NCBI GenBank assembly: GCA_903813345.2
Contig: CAIIXF020000005.1
Location: 8,433,375 to 8,497,374, forward strand
Reading direction: 5' to 3'
DNA from: Owenia fusiformis
Taxonomy: Eukaryota > Annelida > Polychaeta > Sabellida > Oweniidae
Length of the DNA stretch: 64,000 bases
Position numbers and translations under genes: made by a program. Positions 4,501 through 28,500 of the stretch are shown piece after piece (position 1 is the first letter of the stretch; each line of letters opens with the position of its first letter). The notes below the pieces were generated by a model that was not told the DNA's origin, did no database searches, and saw only the letters and a program-made list of their open reading frames with translations.

Positions 4501-7500
4501 CCTTGGAGCCTCTCTTTCACTGTCAGCTGACAAAGGTCATCATCATCTAAATGCTGGTTAAGTTTACATGTACTGAATATTGTGAGATAATGGAAATTGA
4601 ATCCCTCAACAAGGAAAAAACCAATGCATGACATCAAACATTTGGATTGCTTCTAATTTAACGTTAATTCTGATATATATTCTTAACTACCGTATAATAT
4701 GAAGATCCATGAAAGTACTGTTTGAAGTGAGAGTATAATTAATAAAATAAATAATAATAATACCAAATAATTGATTAAGCTTGTTGAAAAGGATACTTTG
4801 GTTGATTGCAACTATGTTTATAAAGGTATCTTCACTGCCCGTCACACACACAGAAACAGTGGTTCCACCTGGTGTTTGAATACTGCATAGATGTTTCACA
4901 CAGGTCAGTTCCCTCCCATGTAGACTAGACTGAAATGTCATAAAATACAAGGTCAAAGAATTCCAAAATTGTTGCACCCTTCTTCGCGGAATGCTAAACT
5001 GAACGAGACTAAAACACTTGTATCTTTCCAAGCTTTGCCTCCATGTCCTTTGGTCCATAATTAACCTCTTGAATACCCAGAGTGACGGATATATCTGTCA
5101 CAAATGAAATAAGACTGGTGCCCAGAGGGACGAGAAAATCCGTCACAAAATTTTTCACAAAAATTGCTCTCATTTGAACAATTTTCATCCAATTTACACA
5201 AAAATTGTTTTAAAACGTGTAGAAATGATCTCTGCCGTCCAATTTTACTAAGCTGAGCATCTAAAGTTGTATAGGTATGTAATAAAATGTCAAAAGGTGG
5301 CAAAAAATGAAAAATTCTCTGGTTTCATGCCAATTTTAGAGCCTGGGATTCAAGAGGTTAATAGATTAAACAACCATGTTTTATTAGGTTCAGGTTATGT
5401 ACATGAAGTTACCTTCAGTGTTTTGTGGGCTGTATTAATGGTTGCACGATGAAGTTGGACAGTCCCTGCTTTGACACAAACGAATCTGACATCTGTGCCC
5501 CTCTGGCTATAATCCCAGGCCCTGTGCCCACCTCCACACTGCAGTGCCACCTTTCTTTCACTGTTAGCAACATCATAGCAAACAAACTTGTCCTAAAAGA
5601 TGAAGTTGACATATTTGTACATGTATTTTATTTAGCAAGAACGTGACAGATGAAATAATCCGACACTATTACTTGGACTGTATTATTAGAATCAAAAGTA
5701 GTAGCCTGTCTGGAATATCTCATGCACCTCTTTCTTGCACTATTTTGCATGAAAATCAAAAATACTATACTTTTCATATCTTATTCCCATTGGTTGGGTT
5801 TTGTAGGGTTAGTAAATTTTTTATTTTTTTATTTGTTTATTCATATATATTTCAACATCAAATGTACAGTAAACGGGTGACACTTCACGTGTACATTCCC
5901 GTGTTTATCATCAAACATGAAATGTACAGATTGGGGATCTGCTTGTGTGATGAATGCTACTATCTATGTCTGACTTAAAATGTGTCATATAATGCCCACT
6001 ATGGTTATCTGAAATTGATATTATTGATTGATAAAATATTTTTTCAATTCTTTTTTCATAATAAAAATACTTCCAGATGATGTTATTTCAATAGGTAATG
6101 AATTCCAAATTCACTTACATTATGAAATCCTAGCACTGACATCTGACTGTTGGAAAAGATGAGGCGTTCTATCCACTCAAATCCCTTTGCAACCTGAAAT
6201 AATGAGCTGTCAGTAACATACATACTTCTTTAGAGTCATAGGTGGATCCGAAGGAATTTTTAGATTATAGGTTTTTTCTACCATTTTAAGTTAATTTTAC
6301 TAACTTGCTGTTCAGTTATTCAAGAGTTTGGTATCGTGGTACTGTCTAGATGCAAATTACAAATGTACAATACAAGTAAGAATACAATACAATCCACAAA
6401 CCTTTTGGTGGTAGAGTAAATGCAATGTGGCATTCTGAGTAATACTATATTGCCGATAGCAACCATCTCTCCCAGCTGTATATACAGAGCCTTGGTGGTA
6501 ATGGACATCAGTGGTACCTCCCTGGCCATGGACCTTGAAGAATGACTGGACTGCATTCTGGAGATCAATAAGAGGGGACATAATAGACAATACAGGGTTC
6601 GTACACCTTTTTCAAAATGAATTTCCCTGACAATTCCCTGACATTTCCAGGCAAAAAAGGAAATTTCCAGATCTAATTTTCCTCGCGCGCCCTCTAAAAA
6701 GTCTCAAACAACTGTATTATTCAAGATAAAAAGACTTATTATGAAACATTTGGGGTTTCTCCTTCAGTACCATTTCTCATGACTTAACTACTTGTACAGG
6801 CTGTCTTATTCACCAATTTATTCCTGATACATCTTATTTTTAATATTACATATTTTACATTGCATAAGGCCAAAGGTAAACATACATGTACAGGGGCATA
6901 GCCAACAAGTATCAAGGAGGTGCATCTTTTGGGGTTTGCATCACTGCGAGCGAAGGAAAACCAGAAGGGGGGGGGGGGTACGGAAATTTTTCAAAATTGA
7001 CACTTGTATATGGTGCATTCTAAGCATTTCAAACTATAATTTGTTAATGTTTTGTAATGAATCCAAATGACAACTGAAACTTTAAAATTTTGATCTAAAT
7101 CCTACTAGAAAAATAGCAACTCACTTGAGGGGCAATTCCCACCTAATGAAACATATTTCTATTGAATACTATCATTGTGAACATTATATGATAGCAATAA
7201 CCTGGCATTACTATTATGTCTTCTCCCTTTTGGGAAAATTACACCAAAACAATTGACACCATATTAGAAATTCCTTCTCAAGTAGCATCACCAGATCACA
7301 AAAAGGCTCAGGCCTATGATACCAAATCAAATAATCAGTATTTTGTGTTATCAGGAATCAAATTTCTTTAAATTATCAAAAATTTCATAAAAAAATGGTG
7401 GCAATTTTGAATTCAGAGACCATCTTGAATATTTCTTCTTGAGCAGGTCTTTTGTCCCTAAGGCTACATCATACAAAATTTGAGCCAAAGTAAAATGCTG

Positions 7501-16500: not shown

Positions 16501-19500
16501 GATTTATTGATGATGATGTCACATAAAGTTGAGATAACCATTGTGGTTAACTTAAGAGAAAATGAGCTTCTAAAAAGTTTTTGTCAAGGATCTAATATGG
16601 ATTATAAATGGAGGGTTAAAAGTCAAGGTGACACTTATTTTAAAGATCATGAATGCTACTTGAACATAGTGAATGTCCTAGAATGTGCATGAATCAAATA
16701 ACCTTGTTTACATATGTTAGACTAGAGCCCATGGTTAGACTGAACATCAAGGCAATGTATTTGTTATTTATAATGGCAATTTAATTTGGTTTTTCATCAA
16801 TTTTAGAATATTGCTGCCTTTATAATTTGGGAAATTTAAATAACTGACAAAAAACACAATTAGACCTAAATCAAATGGAATTATAAAAGTAATGTGATTA
16901 CTGACACAAAATTAACCCATTTATGGAACTTCATATACATTATTTACTCTTGAAGATTTTAGCAGATATTCAAACATTGTATTCTTCCGATTTGCAAAAT
17001 CGGACACAATAATATGGAATAGGCAGGACCTCCATACTAATTTGTAACTCGGTATATTTGTGGTATATGTTCATGGAATAACATTTGAACATGTTAATGC
17101 AATAAAAAGAGGTACAAGAACTTCTGACGAGACAAAAATATTTTGTTAGTTTGTGATGTGTTCAAGAATATTCCATGAATTAAATATACATTGTATGTGA
17201 TTGTAGAAATTATATATTCAGAAATTAATTATTCAGAATTAAGAAATTATAATCAAGATTATCCCACCCTAAGTGCTTTATATGATTGTATAATAGCATT
17301 GTATAACCACAATATAAAACCAACACTCATGAGAACGATATACAACTCCTGGATAGGGTATACAACTCCTGGGGAGCATATACAACTCTTCGACGTTCAA
17401 GAATATTCCATGAATTAAATATACATTGTATGTGATTGTAGAAATTATATATTCAGAAATTAATTATTCAGAATTAAGAAATTATAATCAAGATTATCCC
17501 ACCCTAAGTGCTTTATATGATTGTATAATAGCATTGTATAACCACAATATAAAACCAACACTCATGAGAACGATATACAACTCCTGGATAGGGTATACAA
17601 CTCCTGGGGAGCATATACAACTCTTCGACTTGATATAAAACTGCTCAATTTAGTGGGTGAGATAATAAGATCATATAATGGTTGATTCTGTATATCGTTA
17701 TACTCTTGTGAGTATATAATAACCATTAAACTGTATAACCTCATATTATTTCCAAGTTAGTTTATCATATCAGAATTGAAACAACATAGAAAATCTTGAT
17801 TCTATGATTTATGGAAAATATGTGACCTTTTATCATAACCGGCCTTTTGGCAATGACCTTTGTTCATTTGTTTAGGGATGGTGTCAAATTATTACCTCCC
17901 CTTCCCTGATGTATTGAAATTCTCAAGTGTTGATTTGTCTTTCTCTTGAATATAAAAAAACATAATTTACCCCCTCCCCCTACACCCCCAAAATGCAATC
18001 TCATTTTCGACGCCGTTTCGGTGCAAAATTTCGGTGCCGTTTCAGCACCAAATGGACTGACTAGTCCTGTGGCAAATTTTGGTGTCAAAAGGTTTCGGTG
18101 CCGGAACGGTGTCGAAACTTCGAAACGGTGCCGGAACAGCGCCGAATTTTTTTGATGCCGAAATGGCGCCAAATTATATTGGCTGTGTAGGGAAACTAGT
18201 TTCTTTTTTCCACAACTGTTGATAATTGGACACCATCCCTAAAAAGATCATAAACTGCTTCATGAATCATAAAATTTACAATTTTCATCCCTTTTAGTTC
18301 AAGTCAAAATTTGTGTTCAGCATGTGATATTATAAGTTAAAATGTTTTCAAAGTAGAATAAACTATCAGCTTTGCAAATCGAAAATTGATTATGTTAATT
18401 AGTTGTTAACAAAATGATACTGAGCTATCAAGCATTAAGCATGACCTCACAAAACATGTACAAAATAAATTTCCTACCTGTCTGAATATTCAGCACTCTC
18501 AGATAACCATGAATATTTCCTATAGCAACCAGATGTTGGCATGGTGATAATGACATCACACTGTAAGAGCTATAAGATGGCTCTTCCATTAGTACCTTGC
18601 ACTCCCCATCACTTTCAAAAATAAGGGCTCTAAAAATTGTAAAGGATATATTTTTATTATTTATTTCATTAAAACAATTCAACATTTATACAAATTTGTG
18701 TACCTATATATATCCCTATATGGGTATATAATCGACCACATTTAAAATAGTAAATCAAAAATTATTGAGTTCAGAATAGATTCATTTTGGACACACCAAG
18801 TGAAGTACAAAATAAACAAACAGATACTAAGACTTCTCAAAGGTAAGTTTTTAGTAAAATAAAGAGGCAAGCTGAATCATGGTTCTCTTTAAGTATTATT
18901 GTTGTTACTGAGTTAAAGTAACATAGAACTTTGCCAATCAAATGAGAAATTACCTAACACTTGGTGTATTACAATGAGAAATTCAAATTATTGACAATAA
19001 TTTCATTTATGGCAATGTGAGAGTCGGTTAAGGTTTAGGTATGAACAAGCCCTAAGAAGACCATTCCCCGGTTATCCCAGGTAAATGTTTCTGGTAAGTT
19101 ACACTGAACGAAACATCAAGCTTCAGATCTCGAGAGTACGAGATGAGACTTTAGACGAGATATCGATAGGATTGTAGTTGGAGGGTTTTCTCCCTAGGTG
19201 CGTACAAAATCCATCAACATCAATGTAAGTTATACATTTCGATTCTTTTTATCGACATTTAGCTCTTGTATATACATTTATCTATCGCTGAATCGTTTTG
19301 TGAAAATTTTATCGTAATATTTCACACAAAAAACGTCAGTTTAAAAAAGTTCAAAAAATTTCAAACACGTTTTATCTTTTGTCTTTATGACTTTGTAGTT
19401 TTATGTTTGAAGTATTCAATTGATATCTCGTACATATGGTTTAAAAACTTGAATTTATACAAAAGAATTAATTTATTGATTAATATGGACACGTCACATA

Positions 19501-22500
19501 TTACTCGAGTCTCTACCTTACAGCTAGATGTAACTTCATTTATTTCATATGTACTCGTATTTCGTATGTAAAAATTGCTACACGCACCTAGAAATCATTT
19601 TTATTAATTATATTTAGGATGAAGCGTTGCTTGTCTGGTTTTAGATATTTCAAAATTTCTTTTCGGAGTTTGACACATGGTTAAATTTTCTCGCTGTAGC
19701 TAAAAATGGCTTCCGGTTCCAGACGTCAATATGTAGGAAACTTTGAAATTATTCTCGCTTAAAGAAATCAAATATAACATTAGATTCAGACGGAGATGTG
19801 TGCTGATGTTTCTCAAATCTATACATAAAGATATATTTCATATTATTATGCCGTATTTCCTGTGTGTGTGACACATTGATTTACATTATTTACAACACCT
19901 AGGCAGCTAATCTTTCTACTCAAAGCCGGAATTTAGAGAAGGTTTGGACCTAAATAAGTCACATACATGTCCTCAAGTTACGTTCAATAGACTCCATCCA
20001 ATCTAATAATAGATATTTCATTTATTTACGAGTGTAAGTAACCTTGTAGGCTATTAAATAAATATATCTATTCTATTTTATTATCCCATTCCAGAGATTT
20101 CTGGTTGTTTTTGGGATTATTCATAGTACCATTAAGGTACAGATATCATTTTATTATTTGATATATATTTATCTCTTGAGAGAGCTATAATTATTCCTTT
20201 TCTTCTATATTTCTGACACCTTATTGCACATAATAAACTTTACTCTGAGGATAAGACAGGAGTCATTAATATCCTTACCTTTCTTCTCCCATTATACAAG
20301 ACAATTAGAGATGCCTAATGTTATTAGGGTCAGCATTATAGGCCACAGTTTTGTTCAGAAAATAGAAGAATCTTACCATTTTGACTTTAAATTAAAGGAA
20401 GACATAGTTTACTATAATACCATCATTGTATATACAATTAAACAATTTCAGATGATGTAAAATATAAAAATCCCTATCCAGATACGGCTATATTACAGCT
20501 AGGAGAAAATGATCTGGTTCATAGATCATCTACCTTTGTTGCAAAAAATCTCATCACTTTGGCTGAACAATATTTAGATATACATCCTTCATTAAAAGCC
20601 TTTTATATTGGAGAACTATTTCAACGCTCATGGCATCCTTTCAAATCCTCGATCAATACTGCTTCATAAGGCATTCAATATAATTCAATATTTTATCTAC
20701 CAATTTCAAATTGTTAAATGATATTCATCATCATAAGGGCAATAGACTTTTGTTGTTAATAGATTTCTTGATTACATTTATTAGGTAATAATAATTAGAC
20801 TTAACATTAGAAGAGACGGCTACTCTTCTCTAACCAAACATAAGCCAGAGAGTCGTTAACTTTTCACAATAGTTTATTCACTTAGTTATCCTTCATAAGT
20901 ACTATACTTATATTAGGAAATTTAGTTTCCTGTTTACTTATATTTTATCATATTTATATTATGATAAATATATATTATTTTCTATATCATCTGCATTTAT
21001 TCATGCAGTGTATACTATACCTTTAGACATGATATGTTATCATATTTATATTATGATAAAATTCATATTATTTTATATTTCATATTCTTGCATTGTATGC
21101 TTTACCTTTATTCTTAAAGGTTATCATATTTATATTATGATAATTCATATTATTTTATATATCATATGCATTTTTTCATGCATTGTATACTTTACCTTTA
21201 TTCTTAAAGGTTATCATATTTATATTATGATAATTCATTTTTTATATATCATATGCATTTATTTATGCAGTGTATTCTAAATCATATTTATTATGATTAG
21301 CCTTATGGGCATCATATTTATATTATGATAATTCATAATCTTTATATATCATATGCATTTATTTATGCAGTGTATTCTAAATCATATTTATTATGATTAG
21401 CCTTATGGGCATCATATTTATATTATGATAATTCATAATCTTTATATATCATATGCATTTATTTATGCAGTGTATTCTAAATCATATTCATTATGAATAG
21501 CCTTATGGGCATCATATTTATATACATCTAACATGGAGCATGTGCTTCTATTTATATTTATCTAAATGTTTTTATGTCTTGAAGTTGCTTACCCTCTATA
21601 TAACTACTAATTATTTCACTGCAAATGTCTAAAACTGAAGGACCTAACCCAAGTATTACTATTGAAGAGTATCACACTTCTAATACCCTGACTGCAGCCA
21701 AGTCTATGCCCACTTTAATAAGGGGCAACTTTACAACAACTTTTCCCTTATCCCCTTTCCCTTCTTATTCCACTACATCTTCCATTCCAACCCAACATTT
21801 CATTCTCTCTAATTAGACCCACAGCATCTATTACTCGCCCTATTCCATCTTTTGCATCAAGCGCTAATATCCAACCCTACCCTTCCATCCCTCCAGTCTC
21901 TACTAACCTTTCAGCTTTTCATAATTCCCAACCCGTCTCTACAGCTTATGGATTAATTCCCAACACAAATGCCATGCTACAAGGACAGGTGTCAGTAGCT
22001 TCAATAAATCCAATTCCCAGTTTTCAACATATTACATTACATTAATTTGTCCATATTTCAGATTTTGCGGATTTACTTTAATTCTTTTCTATGATATTCT
22101 TATATTTTGGTATTCATGTATTGATTCATGATTGTATTGAAGAAGACAAAAACAATGATTATGTCCTCTGTGAGATGTAATCTGACAATTCTTTTGAATC
22201 AAAACATTTGAATTTAAACCCTTCAAAGAAGGGAAAATTCCTTTCATTTCCAGAATGGGTCCGAGCATTCAGTATATTTATTGCTGTCTATACCCAAAGA
22301 TTTCATGATCAAACCCCTCACCTCTTGAAATATATATCCCCTTGTCCCTTTAACCACACCTGCCCAACTTGCAAAATGTTACTCCCGCAACAACGGCAGG
22401 CAAGCCCAATTCCCCAACAAAAAGCGCTCAGGTACTGGAGACTCCAAAAAACCCTTCGAGTGAACTTATGTCAACACAAGTTGTTACTCCAGTTAAACCT

Positions 22501-25500
22501 GAAAGACTCAGATATTGGCTTGAAGGCTATGAACATCAAGAAGAAACAGTTCATGGTTTCTAGTACGGATTTAAATTTCCTCACTCTGATTTGCCAGAAC
22601 ATTACAACATTACTCATGATAATTTGTCATCATATCTAAGAACCCAGAAGCTCTCAAAAATTAAACAAAGAGCTTGAAGCTGGTAGAATACTTGGACCTT
22701 TTGACCAGCCACCATTTGATATTATTTCAACCTTATTTCTCGTTCCTAAAAATCTCCAGGTGAATTCTGTGTTATTCACAACTTATCACATCCCATAGGC
22801 CAACCCATAATGATACTATCCCAGACGAAACTTCTACAGTTAAATATGCAACCGTACAACAAGCCATAGATATTATAAAACATTTAGGAAAAGGTTGCTT
22901 CTTGTGTAAGACTATTAGAAGCTTGTTTGCTCATGGACATGGCAAAACAATCATTGACACTTTATGTAACATCAACCCCTTTACCATTAAGCCAAAACCA
23001 TAGAAAGTCTCAAAGAGAACTTTTATCTGCTATAGGATTCCTTAGCTACTGTTGTTGTGTGATTCCTTTCGGTAGATCATTTATTTCATTATTTATTCAT
23101 CTATCTAAAAATGAAGGAGCTACATTATAAAATCTTAATCAACACTCCATCTATGCAGGATTTATTATTGTGGAAATAGTTTCTAATTCCCTTTAATGGG
23201 AAATCTATTTTCCTTACAGAAGAACAACAGACAAGAGAACAATTGCATCTTTTACCGATGCTTCTACTACGATAGGCTATGGAGCCGTTTGCAATAATCT
23301 TTGGTTTAAAGGGGAATGGCCATCAGAATGGAAAGAATTGGACATCAATATTCTTGAATTATATCCTATTGTTACTGCTATACTTACATAGGCAAAACTT
23401 ATGCCTGGACACACAGTTATCCTGCATTCTGACAATGAAGCAGTAGTGAACATACCTAAATAAATTTTCTACCAGCAATCAAACGTCCATGCAACTCTTA
23501 CTTCCTATATATTAAAATGTCTCTTAAACAATTTCATGTTCAAAGTGAACACATTGCTGGTATTCTTAATTCTGCTGCTGACGCTTTATCTAGAAACAAT
23601 TTATGTTACTTTTTATCTTTTTAGAAGCACTTCAAGCTGCCCAAGCCCCGTCTACCAGAAAGTCATATGATTATTAGTACAGTTCAACTCCCAGACAGGT
23701 ATAGGTGAATTTCCTCTAACCCCAGCCTCTGCTAGCCTTTTTGCAGCACATCTTCGTTTAAAGAATTATCCCCCTAATTCATTCAAGTCAGTTCTGTCTG
23801 GTATATCATTTTTATCATATTTTCACAATTAACAATTTCAAGGATCCCACTACTTCTTATGTAGTCTCTCAAATAGTTTCTGGTTTTTGTAAACAAAATC
23901 CTAGCATAGACACTAGATTGCCAATCAACACAGCCTTGTTAGAACAAATGGTTTCTAAAACTTCTGAAGTAGATTTTGACCCTTTTGCTCAAGTCTTGTA
24001 CAGAGCTATGTTATCTACAGCCTTTTTGGCTTACTAAGAAGTAGTGAGTTGACAAGTACTTCCGCAGGACACAACTTACAGTTAGAAAGTATTAAATTCT
24101 CTCCCGATGAAGCCTTTTTCATTATTACTTTTTCACATTTTAAACATAGCTCATCTCCTGCTACGATATCAATTAATTCTCAATTACCATCTTGTTGTCC
24201 AGTATTACATATGAAGTTGTACCTGAACATAAGTTCCTTTAAATCAGGTCCTCTTTTCATTTATAGAGATGCTCCAGTGAATACTTCTGTATTTAACAAT
24301 TTTCTTCACAAACTCTTTGTTCAATGTCAGGTAGATCCTACCTTCTATAAATGCCACAGTTTGCGGATAGGCGGAGCTACATGGGCCACAATTCTTGGAC
24401 TTGATGACTTTACTACCAAAAGATTGGGAGATGACATACTTACATACATTAAAAAATTATATTAGGTAGACTCAGACTGGTGTCGAGTATGCAATTTTCA
24501 TTAAGCCCCATAGTTGCTCAGACAGGTGTCGAGTATTCATTTTTCATGTAAACCCCAAAGTTGGCTCAAACAGGTGTCGAGCATGCAAATTTCAAGTAGC
24601 TACTGTTTTTTCTTCATTATGTACTAGAAATTTAATTGAGATAAACCCGCACTTTCTGAATTCAAAAATTTTCATTCAATTCTAATTCCTTTATCTTACC
24701 TGAGATTGACAGCATATTACATTACATTACATTAATTTGTCCATCCATATTTCAGATTTTGCGGTTTTACTTTAGTTCATTTCTATGATGTTCTTATAAT
24801 TTGGTATTCATGTATTGATTTGTGTGTATCAATAAATGATTTAACTACTTTCTAATTAATCTTCTTTTCTTTTGGGCTCTCGCGAGAGATCGCGCATGGC
24901 CTTATTTTCGCCCAAGAAGATGAGTTGGAGATGGTATTATAATATATCCAATTGAGCTAATTAACAGTTATGTCAAATTGTAAACTCTTGTAGCTAATTA
25001 ACTTAAATTAGCCATTATTTTCCAAGGTATTGTGTTTTGTGTTAATTGGCTCAATATTTATTTATATTAATTTTATATTAATAATTTTACATGTACGACT
25101 CTCACGGCCATATCTATACTCTACATGAACATAAATTCAAATTATTGACAATAATTTCATTTATGGCAATGTGAGAGTCGGTTAAGGTTTAGGTATGAAC
25201 AAGCCCTAAGAAGACCATTCCCCGGTTATCCCAGGTAAATGTTTCTGGTAAGTTACACTGAACGAAACATCAAGCTTCAGATCTCGAGAGTACGAGATGA
25301 GACTTTAGACGAGATATCGATAGGATTGTAGTTGGAGGGTTTTCTCCCTAGGTGCGTACAAAATCCATCAACATCAATGTAAGTTATACATTTCGATTCT
25401 TTTCCCTCACCTCCTTCCCCAGCTTACACCACCAGTTGGAGATTTATTTTCGCCCAAGAAGATGAGTTGGAGATGGTATTATAATATATCCAATTGAGCT

Positions 25501-28500
25501 AATTAACAGTTATGTCAAATTGTAAACTCTTGTAGCTAATTAACTTAAATTAGCCATTATTTTCCAAGGTATTGTGTTTTGTGTTAATTGGCTCAATATT
25601 TATTTATATTAATTTTATATTAATAATTTTACATGTACGACTCTCACGGCCATATCTATACTCTACATGAACATAAATAACATAGTTATTAACAACCTAA
25701 CATCTTGATATGATGGTCACAATGAGCTGTAATCATATACCTGGTGGGTCATGATAACATATAAACTTACCCTTGGTGTGTCATGACAAGAATGCCTGTG
25801 TGATCCACTATGCCAACACTCCTAGGAGTTGCTGAATCATTTGACATGGATACAGTTTGGCATTTTGAGGAAATTGTATCACTTTCTGTGGAATCTGTTG
25901 AAGAGACCCCATCTCTTAGGGAAGATGGGTGAGTGTTTATGTGTACGGTTGATGTTGTAGGGTCTTTGTCACGCTTCAAGGACCAAAGTCTAATACTAGT
26001 GTCCCCTCCTCCTGATGCCTTTATATATGAAAAACAAGGCATTAACATGCAAAGTGTCACCACCTGCGATTTGTTACAGCTGCCATTTGCTACAGACGAT
26101 GACCATTGAATGCCAAACTCCAATCAGACACTGACCATTGAATGTCAAACTCTAATTAGACACTGAACATTGAATGCAAACCACCAATCAGACACTGACC
26201 ATTGAATGCCAAACTCCAATCAGACACTGACCATTGAATGCCAACCGCCAATCAGACACTGACCATTGAATACCAAACTCCAATCAGACACTGACCATTG
26301 AATACCAACCACCAATCAGACACTGACCATTGAATGTCAACCACCAATCAGACACTGACCATTGAATGCCAAACCCCAATCAGAAATTGACCACTGAACT
26401 GTCAATCAACAAACACCAACCACCAGATATCATCCACAACAATGTTGGAAACTATAGCAATTGTTTTATCCTTACACAGCTGTGCAACAGAAAAGGATGT
26501 CCTACATTTAGAATGATGGAGTAAACTTTGTCCTACAGTCATCGACCTTAGAAACCATGAAATATATAAAAAGGCTTCTTAATCTATAAATATAGACTAG
26601 ACGAAGACATTTAATTCCAAAATCATAGCAATAACTTGAATACAGCCCATTATCTATATGTTAAATTTCATAAAGTTAATGATGATGATTCTGCCATCTT
26701 TTAAGATTAAATACAATTATATACAGACAACAATTTCAGAGTCAATCAAATATATGCTCCAAACATACGAGGGCTGTTAAATAAATAATGCCACTATTAT
26801 CTTATAAATGTATATTCTTACCACAATGGTTTCTTCATCATTGACTGCAAGAGCACGAATGCTTTTACCCTGAAACACATGATTGGATGCATTTAATTTG
26901 CAACCCATGAATCACACATTGAGTAAAATAACATGAAGGATTTCACCAATATATTATTGATCATAAGTGGTCAATCTGTTCCACATTTTCTGTCTGTTTT
27001 CGATCAGTTCCATTCCTTTTACCATTTTGTATATCCTTTTTAGGTCCTTCATATTTTTTTTTACATTTTTCTAAAGTCTGTAAATGTATTTATCATATGA
27101 TCTGTAAAATGAAGCCTTCTGATTGGTCAGTTCTTGTGCTGTACCAATCTGTATTGCTACTGAGATTGTCCTCGTTGATCATCTCCGTCGCAATACAGAA
27201 AATATTGGTATGGAGGGGATAATCTCATTAGCAATACAGAGGATCTCACGATAAAAACGTTATAGAATGATTTGAAGTGCAATACAGGATATATTCTGCT
27301 CTCGATATTCTGTATTGGCACTCGACTTCATCTCATTCCAATACAGAATTTCTCGAGCAGAATATATCTTGTATTGCACTTCAAATCATTCAATAACTTA
27401 TATTGTAGATACTGCATGAGTGACACCATTAAAAATTGTAGCGATTCAGTACGATATGCAATTTTTTGAGATCGATATTTATTTGAATGTTAATTTCTCT
27501 ATATTTCTACAAAATAAACTGCTCTGCCAGTAAGAGACCAGCTCAAATAATTTTACTCACCTTATGACCTGTGAATTTGGTAACAACATTTCCTTGATGG
27601 TTCCATACACAGCATGTGGCATCCTGCAATGTTCGCAAGTGGAATACAAAGTACAAATGTGTACAAAGAATTCAGATTTTCATTAAGTTACAATGTATGT
27701 GGTGGTAAACTTATGAGGTAAAGATTTTGAAAAAATATCTATTCCTAGTTGTGCAATGTGCATTTAAATTTATTCATATCTAATCAAACAAGTACTGCAT
27801 GTAGCATACCTCTCCAATTGTGACAAAATAGTCTTGTAATATACAGAAATCCCATAGCCTGGCAGAGTGACCAAATAATACATGGACCACAGTAAATGTT
27901 GCTTGGTCCCAGCCCAGCAAGTCCCCTTGGAATTGGAGTCCTTCTATTTTCCATATTCTGAGACTGCGGTCATCTGAGACACTGCCAAGGTATTCATGTT
28001 TCTGGTGGAAATGAATGGAAAATATGACCCCCTGAAACATATTATACATGCACACGATGAATTAGAATACTGTAAAGGTACAGATAGCAATTAAAGGCCC
28101 CATACAGAAATCCTGAATTTGCCCCATATTCATGAAAATAGTAATTTCGGCAGCTACACACACATGAAGATATAAGATGCAGAAATGTAAACACCTATGA
28201 TGAAGTCCTCAAGTACTGGTAGTGGTAGGTGTCTTAAAAATTCTGAATCTTTAATGCAAGACAATATATCTATTTTACTGATTAGAGGAAAGGGGTTTTT
28301 CATATTGATATAATGTCCTTGGTCAAGAATAAAATAATGTAATCCCATTTGATTTGAACTGGTGTTATATTGTTAAATAAAAAGGTTGCATTTTATTCCA
28401 GAACTTAGCTTTTAGGGAAGGGCAAAAAAAGATTTGTAATGTGAAGAAAATAAGAAAGGACACATGGAAAAAGCAATACAAGACCATATATTTGCATATG

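Follow-up and report, generated by a model that had tools for sequence, protein, structure and literature searches.

A broken Ngaro-type retrotransposon family in Owenia fusiformis and its probable mobilisation by foreign proteins

The 64,000-nucleotide stretch of the Owenia fusiformis genome analysed here (hereafter the window; contig CAIIXF020000005.1 of assembly GCA_903813345.2, positions 8,433,375 to 8,497,374) lies on contig C5 of the 498-Mb assembly and harbours, between positions 18979 and 25678, a retrotransposon with split direct repeats and a non-functional coding region. Comparison of this element with its copies and relatives makes it very probable that it belongs to a non-autonomous Ngaro-type family, the founder of which would have been broken before it spread and the members of which would then have been copied and inserted by the proteins of other elements, with most interior changes being errors of complementary DNA (cDNA) synthesis. 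The copies share lesions, carry identical repeats within unique flanks, change more slowly in their repeats than in their interiors and bear strand-asymmetric changes.

Split repeats and shared lesions of the dead family

The repeats of the window element follow the order A1-internal-B1-A2-spacer-B2, all on the forward strand. The left repeat A1 (18979 to 19249) and its partner A2 (25133 to 25403) are identical at 271 of 271 positions, and B1 (24902 to 25136) and B2 (25444 to 25678), the latter forming the right end of the element, align with 235 identities out of 235. An earlier reading made from the letters alone (the sequence-only reading) had described this layout correctly, apart from a 40-nt spacer between A2 and B2 (25404 to 25443), and had seen no difference by eye in either pair, with the exact length for B and a slightly short one (267 bp) for A. 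The element proper starts at about position 18981 with ATTCAAATT, the preceding 2 nt being different among insertions. B1 overlaps A2 by 4 nt, which constitute the B|A junction, and this junction (ACAT-AAA-TTC) is presumed to be the recombinase site. The last 2 nt of the spacer vary (AT, CC or TT), and the CC ending marks one lineage among the copies. The idea that this dinucleotide before B2 is made anew at each copying was rejected, since the CC form tracks four copies which share other changes.

A pattern census of the assembly, with up to 3 mismatches allowed, returned 82 A, 52 spacer, 81 B and 27 B1|A2 junction sites; more diverged elements are missed by such patterns and the counts are lower bounds. 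Since the junction, together with A and B repeats, recurs at 26 sites other than that of the window, the window repeats are not a product of chance. An A1 is found no more than 20 kb upstream of each of the 27 junctions, which gives a minimum of 27 full-length elements: 24 of the dead type, two open-frame relatives (L014 and L015) and one interrupted relative (L016). All three relatives and 22 of the 24 dead-type elements were read. The first 14 of the latter are the window copy and 13 full-length copies picked as the best A matches; the eight further ones are L027 to L032, L039 and L040, with the right ends of L028, L031 and L032 lying beyond the fetched stretches, and L029, missed by the spacer pattern, being counted via its junction. 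The remaining two were assigned to the dead type because their recombinase fragments share 96-98% identity with the window copy. In these two elements (C5:3896682-3915229 and C12:25299944-25310345), ∼12 kb and ∼4 kb, respectively, of additional sequence separate A1 from the junction and probably represent nested insertions. The flanks are distinct among the copies listed.

Within the first 14 copies, A1 and A2 show no difference over 268 bases in any copy, and B1 and B2 none over 232 bases in all 13 comparable copies, L007 being excluded because its B1 is interrupted (by an insertion of ∼550 bp, at about 6644-7196 in element orientation). The eight further copies add a single A1/A2 mismatch, in L029 (the A2 of L028 ends at the edge of its stretch and was compared over 251 nt), and no B1/B2 difference in the five in which B could be compared, so that the pooled result is one differing base over 22 copies for A and none over 18 for B. 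Meanwhile, the mean pairwise divergence among the 14 copies is 1.43% in the interior (0.26-1.99), versus 0.27% in A and 0.43% in B, and variable columns amount to 12 of 500 in A and B together as against 444 of 5787 in the interior (p=1.4e-6). Had the private interior changes of these copies arisen in place, ∼58 repeat differences would be predicted, and none was observed. Hence, nearly all the divergence of the first 14 copies is older than their last insertion.

The sequence-only reading had attributed the identical repeats to either recent replication or gene conversion. Of the two, replication fits better. It is true that direct repeats are known to undergo gene conversion, and that conversion within old insertions that died in place would likewise account for the private A and B variants, which in the first 14 copies always occur in both members of a pair. 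However, conversion within an element should not make A and B differ less from copy to copy, and yet their variation is ∼2.5 to 5 times lower than that of the interior; nor would decay in place be expected to produce the 11-fold strand asymmetry of interior A/T changes that is seen on either chromosome strand, and L029 carries an A1/A2 difference which has not been converted. Such conversion thus seems a quite improbable explanation. In the case of replication, each cycle probably regenerates A1/A2 and B1/B2 from one template, placing private variants in both members of a pair; the repeats would be retained as cis-acting signals while the dead interior drifts, and it is presumably selection, not exchange between copies, that lies behind their conservation.

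The lesions were compared in 20 dead copies aligned to the open frames of L014 (L039 and L040 stood outside this comparison). Four large deletions are present in all 20: 365 nt in the reverse transcriptase (RT) frame, 306 nt in the gag/RT overlap (40 nt of it within the RT frame), 72 nt in the RT/recombinase overlap (46 nt of it within the recombinase frame, at its start) and 36 nt in gag. A fifth deletion, also in gag, spans 82 nt in 18 of the copies and 81 nt in two, and further short frameshifts are common to the dead copies. In the RT of the relative the Asp-Asp pair is found at residue 287, inside the segment (residues 218-340) that the 365-nt deletion removes, so that all 20 copies lack the predicted catalytic Asp-Asp segment. 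In addition, all 20 dead copies contain, inside the old gag frame (22031 to 22126 in the window copy), ∼100 bp similar to a 3′ portion of the element (24721-24820), while the relatives match this sequence once; the duplicated segment is probably a template-switch scar of the founder.

Since these lesions, the loss of the RT active site included, are common to all 20 copies, the founder was dead already, and its later spread must have relied on proteins from elsewhere. According to this reconstruction, the founder lost its RT active site, portions of gag and the beginning of the recombinase before the family spread. That each copy was inserted active and died independently is hardly conceivable: of the 35 sites at which a deletion shifts the RT frame, 14 are unique to one copy, but the 365-, 306-, 72- and 36-nt deletions and the duplicated 3′ segment are universal among the 20 and imply a founder that was dead. 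The private changes of the first 14 copies fall on the three old codon positions as 74/78/51, thus revealing no visible coding constraint; the fixed differences between the dead copies and the open-frame relatives are distributed as 72/55/102. Mobilisation in trans of a non-autonomous, recently active family, as proposed by the sequence-only reading, is therefore well supported by the sequence comparisons, with lesions common to all 20 copies and open-frame relatives bearing nearly the same termini. That reading had regarded repeat pairs several per cent apart, or the lack of any other copy with the same internal lesions, as evidence to the contrary, and neither was found; the searches it had suggested, for copies with the same deletions and for an intact relative, yielded the 20 copies and L014 and L015, respectively. 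A search of the one assembly with the 320-nt joined flanks of the window copy recovered just the two flanks at their known location, and no empty allele or paralogue.

The non-functional internal region of the window copy extends from 19250 to 24901. Compared with the open-frame relatives, its coding part carries the stops and frameshifts noticed by the sequence-only reading, but several deletions instead of the single one that was reported. The remnant of the open reading frame (ORF) for an SGNH-hydrolase-like protein (20189 to 20781; 240 codons in the relatives) has shared frameshifts and a deletion of 122-124 bp near 20754, found in the window copy only among the 20 aligned dead copies. It is followed by an AT-rich tandem array with a period of 90-100 bp (20945 to 21523), related repeats being present in the open-frame relatives as well, and by the remnant of a gag-like ORF (21604 to 22460; 445 codons in L014) with the 306- and 36-nt deletions and the fifth one (82 nt in 18 of the 20 copies). 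The RT-RNase H remnant (22335 to 23621; 605 codons in the relatives) has the breakpoint of its 365-nt deletion at about 22912, and the tyrosine recombinase remnant (23612 to 24466; 302 codons in the relatives) has the 72-nt deletion and further frameshifts. The non-coding sequence towards the 3′ end also contains a tandem array with a 48-bp unit (24471 to 24598). A Pfam search with ten broken pieces of the window produced a single chance-level match below the cut-off (PyrI, E=0.069), for which reason protein families were sought in the relatives, and an Rfam search of the 17-28 kb part of the window gave no match at the gathering score.

Beyond the right end of the element, window positions 26093-26398 are occupied by a 32-bp minisatellite of 9.6 copies. 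A 118-amino-acid open frame lies directly downstream of the element on the reverse strand (25767-26123), its translation being WD40-like by eye, and a stretch of ∼50 bp beside the element (26025-26086) is partly repeated six times within the 44.5-54.1 kb part of the window.

Open-frame relatives and the class of the element

The two open-frame relatives, L014 and L015, contain stop-to-stop frames of 240, 100, 445 or 439, 605 and 302 codons, and L015 shows neither a frameshift nor a stop relative to L014. Their split repeats are 95-97% identical to those of the window copy (96.7% for A, ∼97% for B), and their own repeat pairs are identical over the stretches compared. The interiors of four dead copies are 7.5-8% apart from that of L014. 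The third relative, L016, is interrupted: in the stretch fetched, it breaks off within the recombinase frame, and the next junction lies ∼19.6 kb off.

A Pfam search detected RVT_1 in the 605-codon frame of L014 (E=1.7e-15), whereas RNase H-like matches in L014 remained under the curated cut-off. The recombinase of the relative possesses an HxxR motif and a tyrosine near its C-terminus, with a weak family-level match to Phage_integrase (E=0.014, under the cut-off), and the product of its SGNH-like ORF has a GHS motif and matches Lipase_GDSL (E=0.0037, under the curated cut-off). No DDE integrase match was obtained for the five ORFs of L014, and no methyltransferase domain, such as is present in DIRS-like elements, was matched in them either. 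Among the junctions listed, inspected by eye, the left end mostly shows an A/T dinucleotide (GT in L018 and L032, TC in L061), the right end reads ACATAA wherever it is present and unaltered, and no target-site duplication was seen. In its repeat order, RT, recombinase motifs, lack of methyltransferase and DDE matches and insertion at a presumed B|A circle junction without a visible target-site duplication, the element fits a Ngaro-type tyrosine-recombinase retrotransposon. In PDB sequence searches, the RT frame had a single, weak match to a polyprotein (E=0.0074); the search with the recombinase returned five WD40 or designed-propeller chains (E from 4e-5 to 0.0045), which were judged spurious, as no single stretch passed.

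Judging by their termini, the open-frame relatives are the likely source of protein for the dead family: RNA of the dead elements would be copied, and the resulting DNA inserted, by foreign proteins most likely encoded by elements with ∼97% identical repeats. Related recombinase frames are also numerous elsewhere in the assembly (about 24-43% identity) and frequently stay open for over 300 codons; several further families coexist in it.

Strand-asymmetric private changes

Among the 347 private substitutions (singletons in the first 14 copies), read on the sense strand, A>T occurs 127 times and T>A 13 times, which corresponds to a per-base rate ratio of 11.3; G>T is likewise in excess over C>A (44 versus 12, ratio 5.2). 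When singletons among 22 copies are considered, A>T and T>A stand at 60 to 8 in minus-strand and 53 to 5 in plus-strand elements, and the bias therefore follows the element and not the chromosome. Two other dead subfamilies, represented by eight copies, show 46 to 9 among 160 private changes, or 67 to 14 among 274 with stem changes (oriented by majority) included. For A>T, the rate varies with the base on the 3′ side (T.123, A.055, C.035, G.016; p=4e-10), but shows no such dependence on the 5′ side (p=0.25); the same holds for G>T (p=5e-5 and p=0.72, respectively). Neighbour context alone does not separate first-strand from second-strand synthesis.

In view of this strand asymmetry, most private interior changes were probably made during copying. 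The interior changes would then be mostly errors of cDNA synthesis, which on the sense strand appear mainly as A>T and G>T, i.e. as dA placed opposite template purines, and the simplest cause would be that an RT misinserts dA in certain copying lineages. As a full explanation of A>T, slippage onto the template base just before was considered and rejected, as the rate does not climb steadily in longer T runs and G>T is left unexplained; at best it plays a partial role.

A modified or damaged RNA template, or germ-line damage to the element linked to transcription, is a possible but rather unlikely origin of the excess. A strand-fixed mark on the RNA would likewise yield sense-strand asymmetry, and the absence of the excess on short branches suggests a process that is not constant. 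On the other hand, dependence on the 3′ but not the 5′ neighbour resembles the context effects of polymerase misinsertion, and damage in place would strike the members of a repeat pair independently, whereas the pairs are identical.

Several observations nevertheless weigh against a family copied, with such errors, by the proteins of the open-frame relatives. The first 13 copies were selected in a way that favours young ones. The partner is named from terminal identity and open frames only, and other elements with related open recombinase frames are present in the genome. The A>T excess itself is uneven: four short terminal branches hold 2 A>T among 31 changes as against 125 of 316 elsewhere (p=1.2e-4, the split having been chosen post hoc), heterogeneity over all 14 branches reaches p=0.04, and the share of A>T is only 3 of 20 in L012 and 4 of 38 in L029. 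No excess is visible in the open-frame relatives, with 2 A>T and no T>A among 23 changes, or 4 and 1, respectively, of 22 if the dead copies serve to orient them; nor in two control families that also bear recombinases (4 A>T against 7 T>A, 59 changes in all), and the fixed, unoriented differences between dead and open-frame elements stand at 50 to 31 of 352. One must bear in mind that these comparison sets are mostly coding sequence, from which selection may remove A>T changes. The two control families were chosen by recombinase similarity (35-36%) and compared over ungapped columns only; the first consisted of L033, L034, L037 and L038 (L033 to L038 forming three groups), while the second, L041 to L044, is uneven, with L042 being 9% from L041 and L043 and L044 aligned over ∼2,835 columns.

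Solo units and comparison with known systems

Besides the full-length elements, the census contains 26 A-spacer-B units without the junction, all of which were read; their listed flanks differ. The right end is the usual one in 23 of them, truncated in L021 and L047 and altered in L059. Eighteen are of the dead type at 99% similarity or more, four are nearer to the open-frame type and four are more diverged. A further locus, L063, was set aside from this count: it carries a diverged and disrupted A-spacer-B unit, the B part of which is displaced by ∼180 bp, possibly by a nested insertion. The reciprocal arrangement, A-internal-B, was not encountered among the 81 B sites found with up to 3 mismatches, a search by which diverged units would be missed; the only three B sites apart from a spacer or junction are B2 of L029, the interrupted B1 of L007 and L063.

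Homologous recombination between B1 and B2, which are 542 bp apart, should yield A-internal-B at least as often as solo units are formed. As no such units are seen, the route to the solos looks directional, and excision by the recombinase or integration of a minicircle is tentatively favoured over plain homologous recombination. Ordinary recombination between A1 and A2 in place, in the manner of solo long terminal repeats (LTRs), is still a serious, if somewhat less probable, alternative: its product would be exactly A-spacer-B, the solos derive from several lineages, and the solo AB repeats of Cafeteria have been interpreted as recombination products (PMC8547959). It is the polarity, none against 26, that suits excision via an A-side half-site or integration of an A-spacer-B minicircle better.

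It is tempting to join both peculiarities in one tentative and rather doubtful scheme, in which an RT with the template-purine infidelity of diversity-generating retroelements (DGRs) would place dA opposite A or G, as set by the 3′ base and in bursts, and the recombinase would resolve the split repeats one way, shedding the coding unit and leaving A-spacer-B. In the DGR reverse transcriptase, too, the dependence on the base 3′ of the template adenine is the strongest, but the favoured errors differ (PMC12875486).

Split repeats, identical repeat pairs and SGNH have been described for Ngaro elements such as Xenopus DIRS-53_XT (PMC9210276), and solo AB repeats for Ngaro types of Cafeteria (PMC8547959). 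The Owenia elements agree with both in the order A1-ORFs-B1-A2-B2, identical pairs, RT-RNase H and tyrosine recombinase, share the solo AB repeats with Cafeteria and have a putative counterpart of the SGNH ORF of amphibian Ngaro, an ORF which some Ngaro elements lack; unlike these known elements, 24 of the 27 full-length elements here are of the dead type (lesions tested in 20) and have spread recently, and a 40-nt spacer separates A2 from B2. SIRE of Trypanosoma cruzi is the A2-B2 unit of VIPER, its origin and mobility being left open by the authors (PMC6681497). With a 185-bp 5′ part, ∼30 unique bp and a 220-bp 3′ end, it resembles the present solo units, which in contrast coexist with full-length dead and open-frame elements and were made by several lineages. 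For Ectocarpus, both Ngaro families and non-autonomous families are listed, the passages identifying no Ngaro family as non-autonomous or otherwise (PMC12477816).

In the open-access literature searched, few reports of non-autonomous tyrosine-recombinase retrotransposons were found, and neither a Ngaro family still spreading with shared lesions nor an A>T signature was found there. TOC1/TOC3 of Chlamydomonas is a non-autonomous tyrosine-recombinase retrotransposon with a coding relative. Dasheng/RIRE2 of rice is likewise a non-autonomous family thought to depend on a putative autonomous partner. It is an LTR element with a different integration machinery.

Two features would come unexpected to a specialist, the strand-asymmetric record of errors and the directional formation of the solos, with the A>T signature as the most surprising part. 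A review doubts that RT errors shape the composition of elements, dATP misincorporation being described as exceedingly rare, and notes that this was tested only on retroviral RT (PMC9099904). The A>T pattern of the dead family points in the opposite direction, and the matter can be tested in vitro. A single assembly supplies 24 dead full-length copies, three relatives (two with all frames open) and 26 solos, and the polarity of the latter bears on how the ends of split-repeat elements are rebuilt or resolved. Since no constraint acts on the dead interior, and the repeats indicate that hardly anything changed once a copy was inserted, the private changes would serve as a record of copying errors; under the doubtful scheme outlined above, a Ngaro-type element would leave a natural, strand-resolved record of its fidelity in its non-autonomous passengers.

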